NCBI GenBank assembly: GCA_963556255.1
Contig: OY744614.1
Location: 40,834,078 to 40,898,077 of the forward strand
Reading direction: 5' to 3'
Origin: Allolobophora icterica
Lineage: Eukaryota > Annelida > Clitellata > Crassiclitellata > Lumbricidae
Length of the DNA: 64,000 nt
Shown here: one piece after another, positions 55,983-60,762 of the stretch
How positions within the stretch are numbered: the first letter of the stretch is position 1
Layout of the letters: each line of letters begins with the position of its first letter
Notes under the pieces: model-generated
Databases searched by the model: none
What the model saw: only the letters and a program-made list of their open reading frames with translations
Told to the model about the DNA's origin: nothing
Position numbers and translations under genes: made by a program

Positions 55983-57845
55983 CTATACTACTGACTGTCC
56001 CCCGTGTCTAAAATATGTATAGATCTGGAAGTGGGATATTCCAAAAGTACCTTGTGTTGGGCTGGTGGCCAAGACCACCAGCATGAATTTTTTGTGTTCT
56101 GTGTCACAAGTGAAGGTGAACTCTTGTGCAGAATTAGTCAAAGCGACAGTGGAGGAAATGAGAGCAGGGACTCTCTGTGAATCGGTGGTTGGAACCCCAT
56201 AAAACTTCCAGGACGTGATACGCGGAGCAGTAGGACTAGATCCCCCGGCCAGACTAACCTTCCATATTCGCACAAGCGTCGGGCATTCAATCATTAAATA
56301 AGTCCCTGTAACCCGATCCCCAATCTGGGTTCTCGATGTGGACGCCGTCCTCCACTCACCTCTCACACCCGAGTTGAATGCCATATGGGGCGGGTTAGTG
56401 GGTAAAGATTCGTTGGCTGAGGCAATAAAACCCGTTTCGGAAACGTTTCTGGAAAGGGGCGGAATATGGCCGCTGTAGTTGAGAATCTTGATGCCCGTCA
56501 CGTATCGCCTTTCATTAGCTATCTCACTGTCTACATACCGTTTATTTGTCACATGCAACGGTTCTGTTGGTACTCTATCACTCTTTGTCATGTTGTCGGC
56601 GATCAGCTTCGATACTTGTGCCATACTCGTCGCGTCGCTTTCGGACGTTGCTGCGCCCGTAGGGAGCCCAGTAACTCTTTTACCGCCCATGATTAAATCA
56701 CCAGTCATTGCATCACCAGCTTTAAGCACGCATGCGCTCCTAACGATAACATCTTGCTCGTTGGCGTACGTCTTAGCAGCTTCAGCTTTCTGGTCCACAT
56801 AGAGTCTAACTGAAGCTCCAATCTCAGCGTTTTTCGCGTCCACATACCGTTTGTTAGTCAAGTACTTTGGTCCAGCCGGCACCGTATCATTATTCTTAGT
56901 GGCGTTGCTGATCAGCTGCGTCACCTGTTTCAAACTCGCGGCGTCGCTATCGGATCCTGGAATTTCTGTTGGGAGTCCAGTCACTCTTTTGCCACCCATG
57001 GTCAAATCACCAGTCATAGAATCGCCGCTTTTGAGCACATGCCCGCCTCTTACGATAGCATGCTTCTCGTCCACATATCTTCTAGCGGTGGTGACCTTCT
57101 CATCCACGTACTGTCTGTAAGAAGCGTCGCGGGAATCTACATACCGCTTATTCACCACATGCAACGACTCCGTTGGTACTCTATCGAGTTTTACTAGAGC
57201 GCCAGCGACCGCCGTTGACACTTGTTTCCAACTCGCTGCGTCGCTATCGGATCCTGAAATTTCTGTTGGGAGCCCAGTAACTCGGTGGCCGCCCATAACT
57301 AAACTTCCAGTCATTACGCCGCCGGATTTGAGCACGCACGCATTCCTGACGATAACATCTTGCTCGTTAACATAACTTTTAACAATAAGGTCCTTGTCAT
57401 CTGCATACTGCCTAACGGAATCTCTCAGCCCCGCATTCTTCTCGTCCGTGTACTGCCTGGCATCGATAAGTTTTTGGTCTGCATGATTTTCGGCTGCGGT
57501 CGCCTTCTGGTCCGCGTATCGTACCACTTGTGCCCAACTCGCAGCGTCGCTATCGGACGTTGCTGTGTCTGTGGGCAGCCCAGTAACTTTGTGGCCACCC
57601 ATTTTTAGAACACCAGACATCGTTCCACCGGTGATTTGTAAGTTGTCCTGATCTATGATGTCTGCATAAGCCTTTGTCGCGGCGTCTGTTTCCATCGTGG
57701 GCGTTCCCACGTTTGTCAGTCGAAAACCTCCAGCCGACAGAATTCCCATCATGGTATCACCCGCTTTGTGGACGAGCCCAGCGGCGCTTATCTGCCCCCC
57801 TCCCACCCCACCTCCACCGTCTCTTCCAAATTTATCAACCGGCAT
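55983..57845 (-). CDS. Repeat-built fibre protein, 620 aa
   Basis: A probable trimeric virion fibre. After a Gly-rich N terminus (DGGGGVGGG) come four to five modules of about 100 residues. Each has a signature like MTGDLTMGGKRVTGLPTE followed by SDSDAAS and then an alpha-helical shaft segment with repeated RYVDEK or KRYVDS units. The same grammar occurs in phage tail fibres and Polinton fibres. The last roughly 180 residues form a different, beta-rich domain (from GIKILNYSGHIPPLSRNVSE), the likely receptor-binding head. At DNA level the modules are about 300 bp repeats, strikingly conserved between 56640 and 57610. The ATG is directly preceded by TATATAAAAA. Confidence 0.8.
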   Translation of the reverse strand: MPVDKFGRDGGGGVGGGQISAAGLVHKAGDTMMGILSAGGFRLTNVGTPTMETDAATKAYADIIDQDNLQITGGTMSGVLKMGGHKVTGLPTDTATSDSDAASWAQVVRYADQKATAAENHADQKLIDARQYTDEKNAGLRDSVRQYADDKDLIVKSYVNEQDVIVRNACVLKSGGVMTGSLVMGGHRVTGLPTEISGSDSDAASWKQVSTAVAGALVKLDRVPTESLHVVNKRYVDSRDASYRQYVDEKVTTARRYVDEKHAIVRGGHVLKSGDSMTGDLTMGGKRVTGLPTEIPGSDSDAASLKQVTQLISNATKNNDTVPAGPKYLTNKRYVDAKNAEIGASVRLYVDQKAEAAKTYANEQDVIVRSACVLKAGDAMTGDLIMGGKRVTGLPTGAATSESDATSMAQVSKLIADNMTKSDRVPTEPLHVTNKRYVDSEIANERRYVTGIKILNYSGHIPPLSRNVSETGFIASANESLPTNPPHMAFNSGVRGEWRTASTSRTQIGDRVTGTYLMIECPTLVRIWKVSLAGGSSPTAPRITSWKFYGVPTTDSQRVPALISSTVALTNSAQEFTFTCDTEHKKFMLVVLATSPTQGTFGISHFQIYTYFRHGGQSVV

Positions 57846-57873: not shown

Positions 57874-58248
57874 CTAACATAAGTCAAGCACGATATCTTC
57901 AAAATTCTTTCCAGCAGCGAGCTCTATTAGCACGGCTAGGCAGAGATGACCACATACCACATCATCTGGCCCCTGTAGCTGAAATGTTTGTGTTCTTATA
58001 GGATTTTTTAAATATCTAGAAATTTCGAGAGGCGGATCCAGCCCATAACTGTCAAAATAGACGGCTTTTGGTCCATCTATCCAATAGGCGACCCAGTGAG
58101 TACCATCACCAGAACCGGAATCCAGATTAACAACTCCACACTCCTTCTCACGAGCCACGGCGGGCAGACCATCTCGCATGAAAACACCGCGGAAATGCGG
58201 CAGCGCTCTGGCAACTTTCTCTATGTCAAAGTTGCTCAGCGGTTTTAG
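57874..58248 (-). CDS. Adenain-type cysteine protease, likely produced by -1 frameshift
   Basis: A C5-family maturation protease that in adenoviruses and Polintons cleaves capsid precursors. Catalytic residues are visible: His in GDGTHWVAY, Asp in YFDSYG, Gln in FQLQGPDD and Cys in VVCGHLCL, with Gln-to-Cys spacing of 7 as in adenain. The first ATG in frame (58179) would give only 101 aa and omit a typical N-terminal segment, LSNFDIEKVARALPHFRGVF, which is intact upstream. The frame is open back to a TAA at 58279-58281 without any ATG. It meets the end of the 190-aa ORF at a slippery heptamer, so translation most likely enters by -1 frameshift, adding about 124 residues to that protein. Internal or non-AUG initiation is the alternative. 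Confidence 0.85.
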   Translation of the reverse strand, partial: LKPLSNFDIEKVARALPHFRGVFMRDGLPAVAREKECGVVNLDSGSGDGTHWVAYWIDGPKAVYFDSYGLDPPLEISRYLKNPIRTQTFQLQGPDDVVCGHLCLAVLIELAAGKNFEDIVLDLC

Positions 58249-58254
58249 TTTTTT
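58208..58254 (-). promoter_or_regulatory. Candidate -1 programmed ribosomal frameshift signal
   Basis: In the frame of the 190-aa ORF the last sense codons are CAA AAA AAC, directly followed by the TAA stop. The heptamer A AAA AAC (58254-58248) fits X XXY YYZ. Slipping back one base opens the protease frame. After an 8-nt spacer (58247-58240), CTGAGCAACTTT (58239-58228) pairs with AAAGTTGCCAG (58218-58208). This forms 11 base pairs with one bulged A and a 9-nt loop. Confidence 0.75.
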
Positions 58255-58817
58255 TGTCCGATGTACAGGCCGGATCCTTTACACATTGAACAGCAACCAC
58301 CATAAGTCTGGCGCCCGAGATATAAACCGGTCCCGCGGACCTGAGCTTCGAGTTCGCGATTGTGACGCGCGGCCTCTGCTAAAGCCGCGTCGTCGATCCG
58401 TTTTTTCTCGGCTTGGGCCGCATCGCTGGCCTGTTTCTTGCGCAGAGCCTCTGCATCGCTGGCCTGTTTGTTGTGCACGGCCTTTGCCACCTCGGCGGCC
58501 CCTCCAGCCGCGGCACCCACCGCGCCTAACCCACTAAAAATCAGCGGGAGGAGAGCCAGTAGTGGAAGAAATCCGCCCGATTTTGTCATCTTTTTCAATT
58601 GTGTTTTGGTGAATCTCAGCTCCATGCCAACGCCTTCCGAAATCTTCCTCACGATTCGGGCGGCTTGAACTTTCGTAAGCGCGAGCTTATCTTCTCCGCG
58701 AAGCTGGCCATGAGTGAGCCGGATCGTGGCACCAGTGCCGGCGCGCGCAGCTCTAGCTAATGTTTGCTTTTGCCCTTCGGTCAGTGAAAGGCCGAACGCA
58801 ACGTATTCAGTTTTCAT
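58245..58817 (-). CDS. Hydrophobic pX-like minor virion protein, 190 aa
   Basis: The N-terminal 85 residues are basic and polar (SLTEGQKQTLARAARAGTGA; RLTHGQLRGEDKLALTK). A strongly hydrophobic Gly/Ala segment follows (GGFLPLLALLPLIFSGLG, then AVGAAAGGAAEVAK), resembling membrane-active minor capsid proteins. Next is an alanine/lysine-rich helix with a duplicated KQASDAEALRK/KQASDAAQAEK unit, and a tail with two GxGLYxG motifs around CCSMC. Similar proteins beside the major capsid gene in metazoan Polintons are compared with adenovirus pX (mu). Its stop codon directly follows the slippery A AAA AAC, so it may exist both alone and fused to the protease. It starts 57 bp after the major capsid gene ends. 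Confidence 0.75.
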   Translation of the reverse strand: MKTEYVAFGLSLTEGQKQTLARAARAGTGATIRLTHGQLRGEDKLALTKVQAARIVRKISEGVGMELRFTKTQLKKMTKSGGFLPLLALLPLIFSGLGAVGAAAGGAAEVAKAVHNKQASDAEALRKKQASDAAQAEKKRIDDAALAEAARHNRELEAQVRGTGLYLGRQTYGGCCSMCKGSGLYIGQKN

Positions 58818-58874: not shown

Positions 58875-60170
58875 CTAGTAGACGACGTTGAATTTGCTGC
58901 CATCCGATTCAAAATTCAGGAGTCGGTCGCTGATCAGGACGGCATATGCTGTCGTATTATTTGGTACCCCTTCGTTAAAGTCCACCTTGATTTGTATGTC
59001 CTGTACAGAGGTTTTAAGTCGTTCGGATTGCCTGCGCACGTCCAGGACGAAGATCGGAAACAAATCTACAAATTCGATTGGTGTCGGTTGGCATGACGAT
59101 TCACGCGCGTCTATACCGCAATATTCTTCCTTGAAGTCACGTAGGGCCTTGTAAGCGCGAGAGGTTGTCCTCTTGGTGAAGTCGAGATTCATGTCAACCA
59201 CCGGGTAGCGATCGCTGTTGAGCATAGCGAAAATGTTGCGAACCTGCACATGGTCAAACAGTGCCGGATTCTGGCCTTGATGTGCATTCTTTCCAGTCTG
59301 AAAAGCAACAAGAATCCAGCGTGGCTTTTCCGTGCCCGACTTAACGCTCAAACGCCAGGAAAAAGTCGTCGCTCGTGGCACCGCAATGTTGTCGCATTGC
59401 ATGGCGCGGAATGCTACAGGTACCTTAACCTTGGCTTCAATCTGCTTCATAAGCATGCTTTTATACTCCAGAGCGGGTATTATATGCGGCATGAACCAGG
59501 AGAGTTTAGTCAGCGCGATCTGGCCATTGGCCGCTGCGGCTTCCTTGAAGATCGCGTCTGCATCCCCCTGCCGGCTCAGCAGTAAGGAGTGTTTGATCCC
59601 GTATACGACCTTGTGATAATCATCGCAAAAACCGAATAGATGTCTTAAGGGAACGATGAATGAAAACGTTCCAATAGGGACGGGTTTTCCAATGATCATC
59701 AGTCGACGGGCCTCGAAGCCGATATTCGCAGCCGCCGCCGCCGCGGTCGTGTCCTTCTGCCAACACATGTTTAAACCTTCGCCTTTGGAAAAATCATCGC
59801 CGTATACCAGCATGCCTTTCATCGTCGTGGCTTGCCCAGGTGACATGACATTCTCTATCTCGGTATTGTTAGCCAGGTATCGAATTTGAGAAAACATGTA
59901 CGGGATAGCATTGTTGATGAATGACACCAACGAGTCTGCGTTGTAACCCGCGCCAGTTGATGTAATCCTGCCCTCCACAAGAAGGTAACTCTTGGAAGGT
60001 TGCGTGAAAATGTCTTGATTCTGGATGTCTATCTGTATGGCCTGGCCGTTGTTAATAGCCGCAGGGTTTTGTGATTCATACTCACGGTATTCAAACGATT
60101 CTATGCTATTGTCATCGGGTACCGCCGAAGCGATGTCCAACATTTCACTCGGCACGTCAAATGCCGCCAT
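58875..60170 (-). CDS. Double-jelly-roll major capsid protein, 431 aa
   Basis: The Polinton/adintovirus-type major capsid protein that would build the icosahedral shell. Recognisable parts are an acidic N terminus (DIASAVPDDNSIESFEYREY), FTQPSKSYLLVEGRIT with SFINNAIPYMFSQIRYLANN, the GMLVYGDD and CWQKD region, KPVPIGTFSFIVPLRHLFGF, and a C-terminal jelly roll with RWILVAFQTGKN, FAMLNSDRYPVVDMNLDF and IFVLDVRRQSERLK. Length falls within the usual range of Polinton capsid proteins. A CTATAATA stretch immediately precedes the ATG. Confidence 0.9.
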   Translation of the reverse strand: MAAFDVPSEMLDIASAVPDDNSIESFEYREYESQNPAAINNGQAIQIDIQNQDIFTQPSKSYLLVEGRITSTGAGYNADSLVSFINNAIPYMFSQIRYLANNTEIENVMSPGQATTMKGMLVYGDDFSKGEGLNMCWQKDTTAAAAAANIGFEARRLMIIGKPVPIGTFSFIVPLRHLFGFCDDYHKVVYGIKHSLLLSRQGDADAIFKEAAAANGQIALTKLSWFMPHIIPALEYKSMLMKQIEAKVKVPVAFRAMQCDNIAVPRATTFSWRLSVKSGTEKPRWILVAFQTGKNAHQGQNPALFDHVQVRNIFAMLNSDRYPVVDMNLDFTKRTTSRAYKALRDFKEEYCGIDARESSCQPTPIEFVDLFPIFVLDVRRQSERLKTSVQDIQIKVDFNEGVPNNTTAYAVLISDRLLNFESDGSKFNVVY

Positions 60171-60281: not shown

Positions 60282-60740
60282 TCATTTTGCAAGAAACAGA
60301 CCCCTACCACAACGACTCGGCTTTATAGTCTTGAAACCGGATCCAGCAATGCGGCTGTTTATGTCAGCCATTGTCGGAACAACGGGTGGCGGACTCACAG
60401 CCAGTTGTTTCAAGTATTCGATGCTCTTGTCGCTGAGCGCCTTCTCCAAAGGTGCGGGAACAACGGGCGCGGCAGATGAATTTTCATTTCGTAAATGAGC
60501 TTCATTTACGGCCGCAGCGCGTCTCGCTTTCACGGCATCAACAATTTGCCTGACGGCAGATGCTGTTGTGGCGCCGGCTTTCGCGACATTACCAACCGCC
60601 TTGGCAACGTTTGTGATTGTGCCTCTATTCGCCGAAATGAAGGAGCCTGCACGGCCAAGGAAACCCGCGATTTTGGGTATCCAGTCGAAAAGTCCACCAC
60701 CCACGACACGACGCCGCTTTTTAATTCCAAGAACAAACAT
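60282..60740 (-). CDS. pVI-like minor virion protein, about 152 aa
   Basis: Start taken at the second ATG (60740); the first (60770) would overlap the penton gene, while 60740 leaves a 22-bp gap. It begins with a basic run (KKRRRVV) followed by GGGLFDWIPKIAGFLGRAG, an amphipathic helix after a GG motif, and a helical TNVAKAVGNVAKAGATTASA segment. It is Pro/Ala-rich in the middle and ends in RCGRGLF. A basic plus amphipathic-helix layout resembles adenovirus pVI-type membrane-lytic proteins. IAGSG near the C terminus fits the (M/I/L)xGx-G consensus of adenain cleavage. Role is by analogy. Confidence 0.7.
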   Translation of the reverse strand: MFVLGIKKRRRVVGGGLFDWIPKIAGFLGRAGSFISANRGTITNVAKAVGNVAKAGATTASAVRQIVDAVKARRAAAVNEAHLRNENSSAAPVVPAPLEKALSDKSIEYLKQLAVSPPPVVPTMADINSRIAGSGFKTIKPSRCGRGLFLAK

Positions 60741-60762
60741 GAGAATATTTAAGTGTGAAAAT

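Follow-up and report, generated by a model that had tools for sequence, protein, structure and literature searches.

The window analysed here, a stretch of 64,000 nucleotides of the Allolobophora icterica genome (G000:C14:40834078-40898077; assembly of 1.12 billion bases), carries the late genes of a Polinton on the minus strand, among them an open reading frame (ORF) for a pX-like protein followed by a frame for an adenovirus-type protease. The pX-like ORF ends in CAA AAA AAC TAA, and reading AAA AAA CTA in the -1 frame leads directly into the protease frame. Judged from the sequence, a programmed -1 ribosomal frameshift yielding a pX-protease fusion is very probably the best explanation of this arrangement. 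Most ribosomes would terminate at the TAA codon and release the pX-like protein of 190 amino acids, while a fraction would shift one base backwards at A AAA AAC, with AAA in the P site and AAC in the A site, bypass the stop and read on into the protease, and the adjacent stop together with a downstream hairpin may promote pausing. We infer that such a shift occurs at some rate, that the fusion would be the main or only source of the protease, and that pX would carry the protease into the particle.

The first-pass annotation of this DNA had placed the heptamer directly before the pX stop, with a -1 slip leading into the protease frame, and the minus-strand sequence confirms this. It had also described the protease frame as lacking an ATG ahead of its conserved N-terminal part and as closed by an upstream stop. 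The former holds, as the first protease-frame ATG (58179-58177 on the minus strand) is codon 25 counted from the heptamer. The latter is true of the window copy, where the stop lies 24 nt ahead of the heptamer (31 nt if counted to the heptamer's end), but it is not conserved, and open frames reach 293 amino acids among the genomic matches to P0023, a protease homologue. Canonical in-frame heptamers are common, with 11 found across the nine late ORFs scanned, and the one in pX is alone among these in filling the final two codons of an ORF. In codon-shuffled versions of pX, any canonical heptamer occurred in the final two codons with P = 0.0023. The placement of the heptamer beside the pX stop is not due to chance.

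The junction is widely conserved within the genome. A 22-nt junction string is found by exact match at 440 places, and a pattern tolerating synonymous changes in the Gln, Lys, Asn and stop codons at 702 places, with the exact bases in 699; the pattern totals of 702 and 699 are confined to copies in which a stretch of 34 nt is intact. Conservation of the heptamer rests on two sets of loci. AAAAAAC-TAA and an open protease frame of 126 amino acids, located by tblastn with the protease, were kept in 98/98 loci, 48 of which had been fetched via the exact 22-nt match and 50 via the protease protein, with a query that covers the heptamer as read in the -1 frame. Heptamer and stop were likewise kept in 20/20 further loci, picked for unlike frame lengths from the P0023 search, one of which (L126) has one whole additional AAA codon and an A run of 10. 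Four loci duplicate a place (L006=L050, L008=L051, L017=L059 and L033=L076), which reduces the 98 loci to 94 places, the window itself (L069) being counted among them, and all 118 loci to 114 places. The number of candidates scored was 150 of 1652 in the search with the window protease, 150 of 1633 with the distant homologue P0042 and 150 of 1636 with P0023. For the protease polymorphism, pre-ATG, stem and 114-place codon counts given below, the rows were chosen by a heptamer-containing pattern, and these counts are uninformative on the conservation of the heptamer.

The 63 nt that separate the pX stop from the first protease-frame ATG are constrained as protease. Across L001-L098 (94 places) they show 12 types of change relative to the commonest copy, of which 10 are synonymous and 2 non-synonymous in the -1 frame (p 2.4e-5), where a synonymous fraction of 0.238 is expected at random; for these 12 changes the two remaining frames give 2/10 and 0/12 synonymous/non-synonymous. 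When 20 more diverged loci were included the count became 14 synonymous and 6 non-synonymous at 114 places (p 1.6e-5). For the whole protease frame the ratio of non-synonymous to synonymous polymorphism (pN/pS) was 0.12 among 61 distinct sequences, and third positions made up 49 of the 78 variable sites.

A structure model of the protease, built from 49 aligned sequences, reached a predicted local distance difference test score (pLDDT) of 91.3 and a predicted template modelling score (pTM) of 0.85. It has a helix at residues 14-21 and a strand at 27-32, up to Met32, and because these predicted elements precede Met32 a start at the ATG would delete part of the protease fold. The best Foldseek match was the adenovirus protease 4piq (E 4e-7), indicating the same fold, whereas the sequence match to the solved adenovirus protease is weak (E 0.013 only) and zero Pfam families were matched at E<=1. 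H59, D74, Q100 and C107, which we take to be the catalytic residues of the adenovirus-type cysteine protease (adenain), are invariant across the 49 aligned rows, and the protease frame accordingly has both the fold and the His, Asp/Glu, Gln and Cys by which an adenain is recognized. In adenovirus the protease is encoded as a separate gene.

Outside this genome we found 85 protease homologues and 133 pX homologues at E<=1e-3, and 19 of the 120 pX homologues listed end exactly in Lys-Asn. Among 28 pX homologues with a C-terminal C..C-G.GL motif, 17 have KN directly before the stop and 6 have KN followed by one more residue. For eight pX/protease pairs from metagenomic sources, each apparently from a single contig, we asked if any nucleotide sequence could encode both members of the pair in overlapping frames. 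Three of the eight pairs (P0001/P0086, P0009/P0089 and P0013/P0116) fit a -1 overlap only, over 12-13 codons and with a deduced end AAAAAAY-TAG, and 0/1904 mismatched placements fitted. Since scans of IMG/VR gave no usable locus for the DNA of relatives, the nucleotide evidence beyond this genome consists of bases deduced from overlapping proteins. The comparison of the junction among related elements, which the first-pass annotation had proposed as a check, thus gives a heptamer, phase and stop that are conserved in the family of the window and deduced in three metagenomic relatives. The relatives P0120/P0045 and P0105/P0017 have a pX ending in KNG or SKK before the stop and a protease starting at its own Met, and may use a stop-start overlap of the ATGA type. 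In the pX homologues P0087 and P0106 the protein runs on in the third frame beyond the junction (..GKKTRTSEQF and ..GKKTKTSEQL), as it would with one A fewer, which may reflect decay, assembly error or slippage.

An 11-bp stem with one bulge, 8 nt downstream of the heptamer, had also been reported, and it is recovered as the minimum free energy (MFE) structure of the 36 nt at 58205-58240 (-12.6 kcal/mol, with 0/200 shuffles as stable). The MFE structure of 61 nt differs and has a 4-bp outer helix beginning 6 nt downstream. The fold z-scores for the window were -4.34, -2.98 and -0.78 for 36, 61 and 111 nt, respectively, and those for the subfamily represented by L002 were -1.01 (61 nt) and -0.61 (99 nt). 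When the late region was scanned, 42/1245 windows of 40 nt, 20/1242 of 60 nt, 181/1239 of 80 nt and 44/1235 of 110 nt folded at least as well, so that the stem ranks within the best few per cent for windows of 40, 60 and 110 nt but outside them for those of 80 nt. Of the 118 loci, 105 keep all pairs of the 7-bp core and 55 keep the eighth pair. A downstream structure at about 5-9 nt belongs to the usual -1 frameshift signal, and the stem possibly stimulates the frameshift here.

Among the 83 proteases placed on a tree, 31 rows including the window form a group with support 99/97. This clade contains 13 rows labelled KKL (the window included), 15 rows for which an internal start was called and 3 rows that start differently; 13 of the 15 KKL rows thus lie inside it, the two outside being P0015 and P0023. 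Many of the 85 protease homologues start at an internal Met, as called by gene prediction. A genome search with P0042 reached other protease families, from which 12 junctions (L100-L111) were fetched. AAAAAAC was found at or before the protease start in 0/12 of these and inside the protease piece in 3/12, and an in-frame Met lies ahead of the conserved protease part in 10/12 (e.g. MSSATVKNIDVEG..), L100 and L111 being those without. Related elements whose protease has a Met of its own, and which lack a slippery site at the protease start, had been named in the first-pass annotation as speaking against a frameshift, and they are present in the same genome. However, we take them for a contrast rather than a refutation because PolB, and not pX, lies upstream: the C-terminus of PolB was found ahead of the protease by tblastn in 9/12. 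The position of the protease gene varies among the Polinton families of this genome, either behind PolB or behind pX, and within this sample the frameshift is associated with the position behind pX.

Several observations weigh against a frameshift at this junction. At 4 of 114 places (L013, L097, L127 and L130) the pX frame is broken within 100 codons of the junction, in a count where L112-L131 extend just about 55 codons upstream. Five of the 28 tail-motif pX homologues lack KN, and 5 of the 8 metagenomic pairs are without an overlap of at least 3 codons, gene calling having started the protease there at a later or separate Met. The protease also starts elsewhere in P0008, P0014 and P0017, which belong to the 31-row clade, and in P0019, P0020, P0025 and P0027 just outside it. 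The KKL label is scattered on the tree, with 14 changes and 307/500 shuffles as low; because gene-called starts are noisy the label is no better clustered than when shuffled, and we do not claim a single origin. Many junction copies are recent duplicates, so that the copy counts are not independent. Finally, the core of the stem is broken in 13 of 118 loci, with neither compensatory change nor covariation, and we do not accept the stem as a proven stimulator. What had been described as a textbook signal in three parts is supported in its heptamer, phase and stop, which are conserved, but weakly supported in its stem.

Other ways of producing the protease have to be weighed against these data. 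Initiation at a start of its own, by a non-AUG codon, by reinitiation after the pX stop or by internal entry, would agree with the Met found at or just before PLSN in P0019, P0020, P0025, P0027 and P0017 and with the in-frame Met upstream in 10 of the 12 proteases of the other Polinton families, but in the family of the window the first in-frame ATG would cost the protease its predicted helix and strand, and an unchanging A AAA AAC would be needless. The near-cognate CTG at protease codon 5 varies (CTG at 64, TTG at 6 and CTT at 44 of the 114 places), and a non-AUG start at this codon was rejected since it is not conserved; altogether we regard an independent start as improbable. Splicing that attaches an upstream start-bearing exon to the protease appears somewhat less probable still. 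It could use an AG, within the AGC of protease codon 6, that is present at 114/114 places, but the sequence preceding this AG is A-rich with no pyrimidine tract, the AGC doubles as the codon for a conserved Ser, and splicing alone would not preserve AAA AAC beside the stop.

RNA polymerase slippage on the A run, putting part of the mRNA in the protease frame, has a slighter chance than either. The run measures 7 in the window, 10 in L126 and, by deduction, 6 to 8 in the three metagenomic relatives; what is kept, however, is the phase of the heptamer with its final C (or Y) and the stop, not the length of the run, and in the single longer run the addition is one entire codon. For polymerase slippage, 6-7 A are also a short run, which counts against it. 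A frame-breaking mutation or an assembly error in a dead element is scarcely credible. PMC8097293 describes the majority of vertebrate Mavericks as degraded, carrying stops and frameshifts, and P0087 and P0106 read beyond the junction as though one base were missing from the A run, but the same junction at about 700 places and its deduction in three metagenomic relatives speak against decay, and we rejected an artefact or dead element because junction and open frame are conserved and the protease is under constraint. The -1 frameshift from pX into the protease, which the first-pass annotation had proposed, is instead supported by the conservation of heptamer, phase and stop together with the constrained frame.

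The partner of the protease is named 'pX-like' only, because its match to Adeno_PX (PF05829; E 0.0072) scores 16.6 bits against a curated cut-off of 25, and the identity given to it earlier is thus sub-threshold. A C-terminal motif G-x-GL[YF][LI] is common to pX and the late ORF at 60282-60752, the sole other one among the nine scanned, and motifs of this type are repeated in distant pX homologues. This tail motif may serve virion incorporation, bringing the protease along, and it is possible that it constitutes an incorporation or cleavage tag; no match to the consensus of the adenovirus-type cleavage motif was found in pX. A 33-nt tandem duplication is present inside pX at 58420-58485, and the C-terminal half of the protein varies among copies by apparent whole-codon changes.

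Retroviral Gag-Pro is made by a -1 frameshift at a slippery heptamer that lies close to where a virion-protein ORF ends. The junction described here resembles it in having the heptamer near the end of such an ORF and the protease in the -1 frame, where a fusion would deliver a minor amount of protease into the particle, and differs from it in its setting, a late gene in a DNA virus or transposon, with a small pX-like partner, an adenovirus-type cysteine protease and a stop immediately after the heptamer. We consider it rather likely that one Polinton clade, with a startless protease that lies behind the pX-like protein rather than behind PolB, where it has a start of its own, and that is made solely as a -1 fusion, has independently evolved, in a eukaryotic DNA virus, a retrovirus-like tether of fixed ratio that is kept in an element family with the junction at about 700 places of one genome.

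Programmed frameshifting is well known in RNA viruses, retroelements and phages and little described for eukaryotic DNA viruses. The first-pass annotation had known of no such case in Polintons or adintoviruses, which is nearly right: the available part of a 2024 preprint (PMC11071296) briefly mentions slippery sites, predicted with the KnotInFrame software, in some Penton ORFs of adintoviruses, and suggests 'a similar relationship' in the case of Hexon-Adenain ('Hexain'). These concern the same virus group and a -1 frameshift, and 'Hexain' has the same kind of downstream protease, but the partner is Penton or Hexon and not pX. In the available text of PMC5009743, gene G/GT of long-tailed double-stranded DNA (dsDNA) phages is likewise a late gene in which a -1 shift close to the 3' end is conserved, but the hosts are bacterial or archaeal, the products are tail-assembly chaperones and a protease is absent. 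The only eukaryotic DNA-virus examples named there are from herpesviruses, namely LANA1 of Kaposi's sarcoma-associated herpesvirus (KSHV), EBNA1 of Epstein-Barr virus (EBV) and drug-resistant thymidine-kinase mutants, and these represent repeat decoding or mutant rescue, unlike a heptamer-stop junction linking two genes. A pX-protease frameshift was not found in the available texts of the literature searched on Polintons, Mavericks and adintoviruses and on frameshifting in eukaryotic dsDNA viruses, where PMC11071296 alone took up the subject. If true, the conserved frameshift would explain how Polintons dose and deliver their maturation protease, would support the view of Polintons as makers of virions, and would be a warning that gene callers truncate the protease or misplace its start. 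With about 700 junction copies in one genome, RNA sequencing and proteomics are feasible as tests.

Table 1 Positions in the window of the pX-protease junction and its surroundings.
Feature	Position	Strand	Remarks
Slippery heptamer A AAA AAC, zero-frame phase	58248..58254 (read 58254-58248)	-	of the form X XXY YYZ
pX stop TAA, immediately 3' of the heptamer	58245..58247	-	kept in 98/98 and 20/20 loci
Protease in the -1 frame, with 126 codons counted from the heptamer and a stop after them	57874..58254	-	adenovirus-protease fold; pN/pS 0.12
Segment from pX stop to first protease-frame ATG, 63 nt	58180..58242	-	constrained in the -1 frame
-1-frame stop 5' of the heptamer, closing the protease frame in the window copy	58279..58281	-	missing from some other copies
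Putative stimulatory stem-loop with one bulge, GCAACTTT/AAAGTTGC (8 bp) flanked by outer pairs	58208..58239	-	from folding; 7-bp core paired in 105/118 loci
ORF of pX-like putative minor virion protein, 190 amino acids, zero frame	58245..58817	-	two C-terminal G-x-GLY-[LI] motifs
Major capsid protein, double jelly roll	58875..60170	-	PF21738, E 9.2e-55; upstream neighbour of the pX-like ORF

The late genes on the minus strand of the window are those for the packaging ATPase (Pox_A32, E 3.4e-8), further ORFs, the capsid protein, the pX-like protein and the protease frame. The adjoining 9 kb of the contig (L099) contain an rve integrase (PF00665, E 2.7e-10) and a PolB of 1252 amino acids (PF03175, E 4.8e-23), which to judge by their adjacency belong to the same element. 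With these the Polinton/Maverick/adintovirus gene set listed in PMC8097293 is complete, comprising PolB, a retrovirus-like integrase, a jelly-roll capsid protein, a packaging ATPase and an adenovirus-type protease. PolB (L099 1090-4848) also has a weak match to Endonuclease_7 (E 1.6e-4), under the cut-off. An ORF of 620 amino acids has, at 56530-57629, repeats of about 100 codons with spacings of 309, 297 and 306 nt and no Pfam match at E<=1, and possibly encodes a fibre-like protein. The element family is abundant and recent, and L072 and L073 are identical to the window across 3,396 bases. The junctions L001-L048 resemble mosaics of at least two subfamilies with upstream and downstream variants recombined, which suggests recombination or gene conversion among copies.
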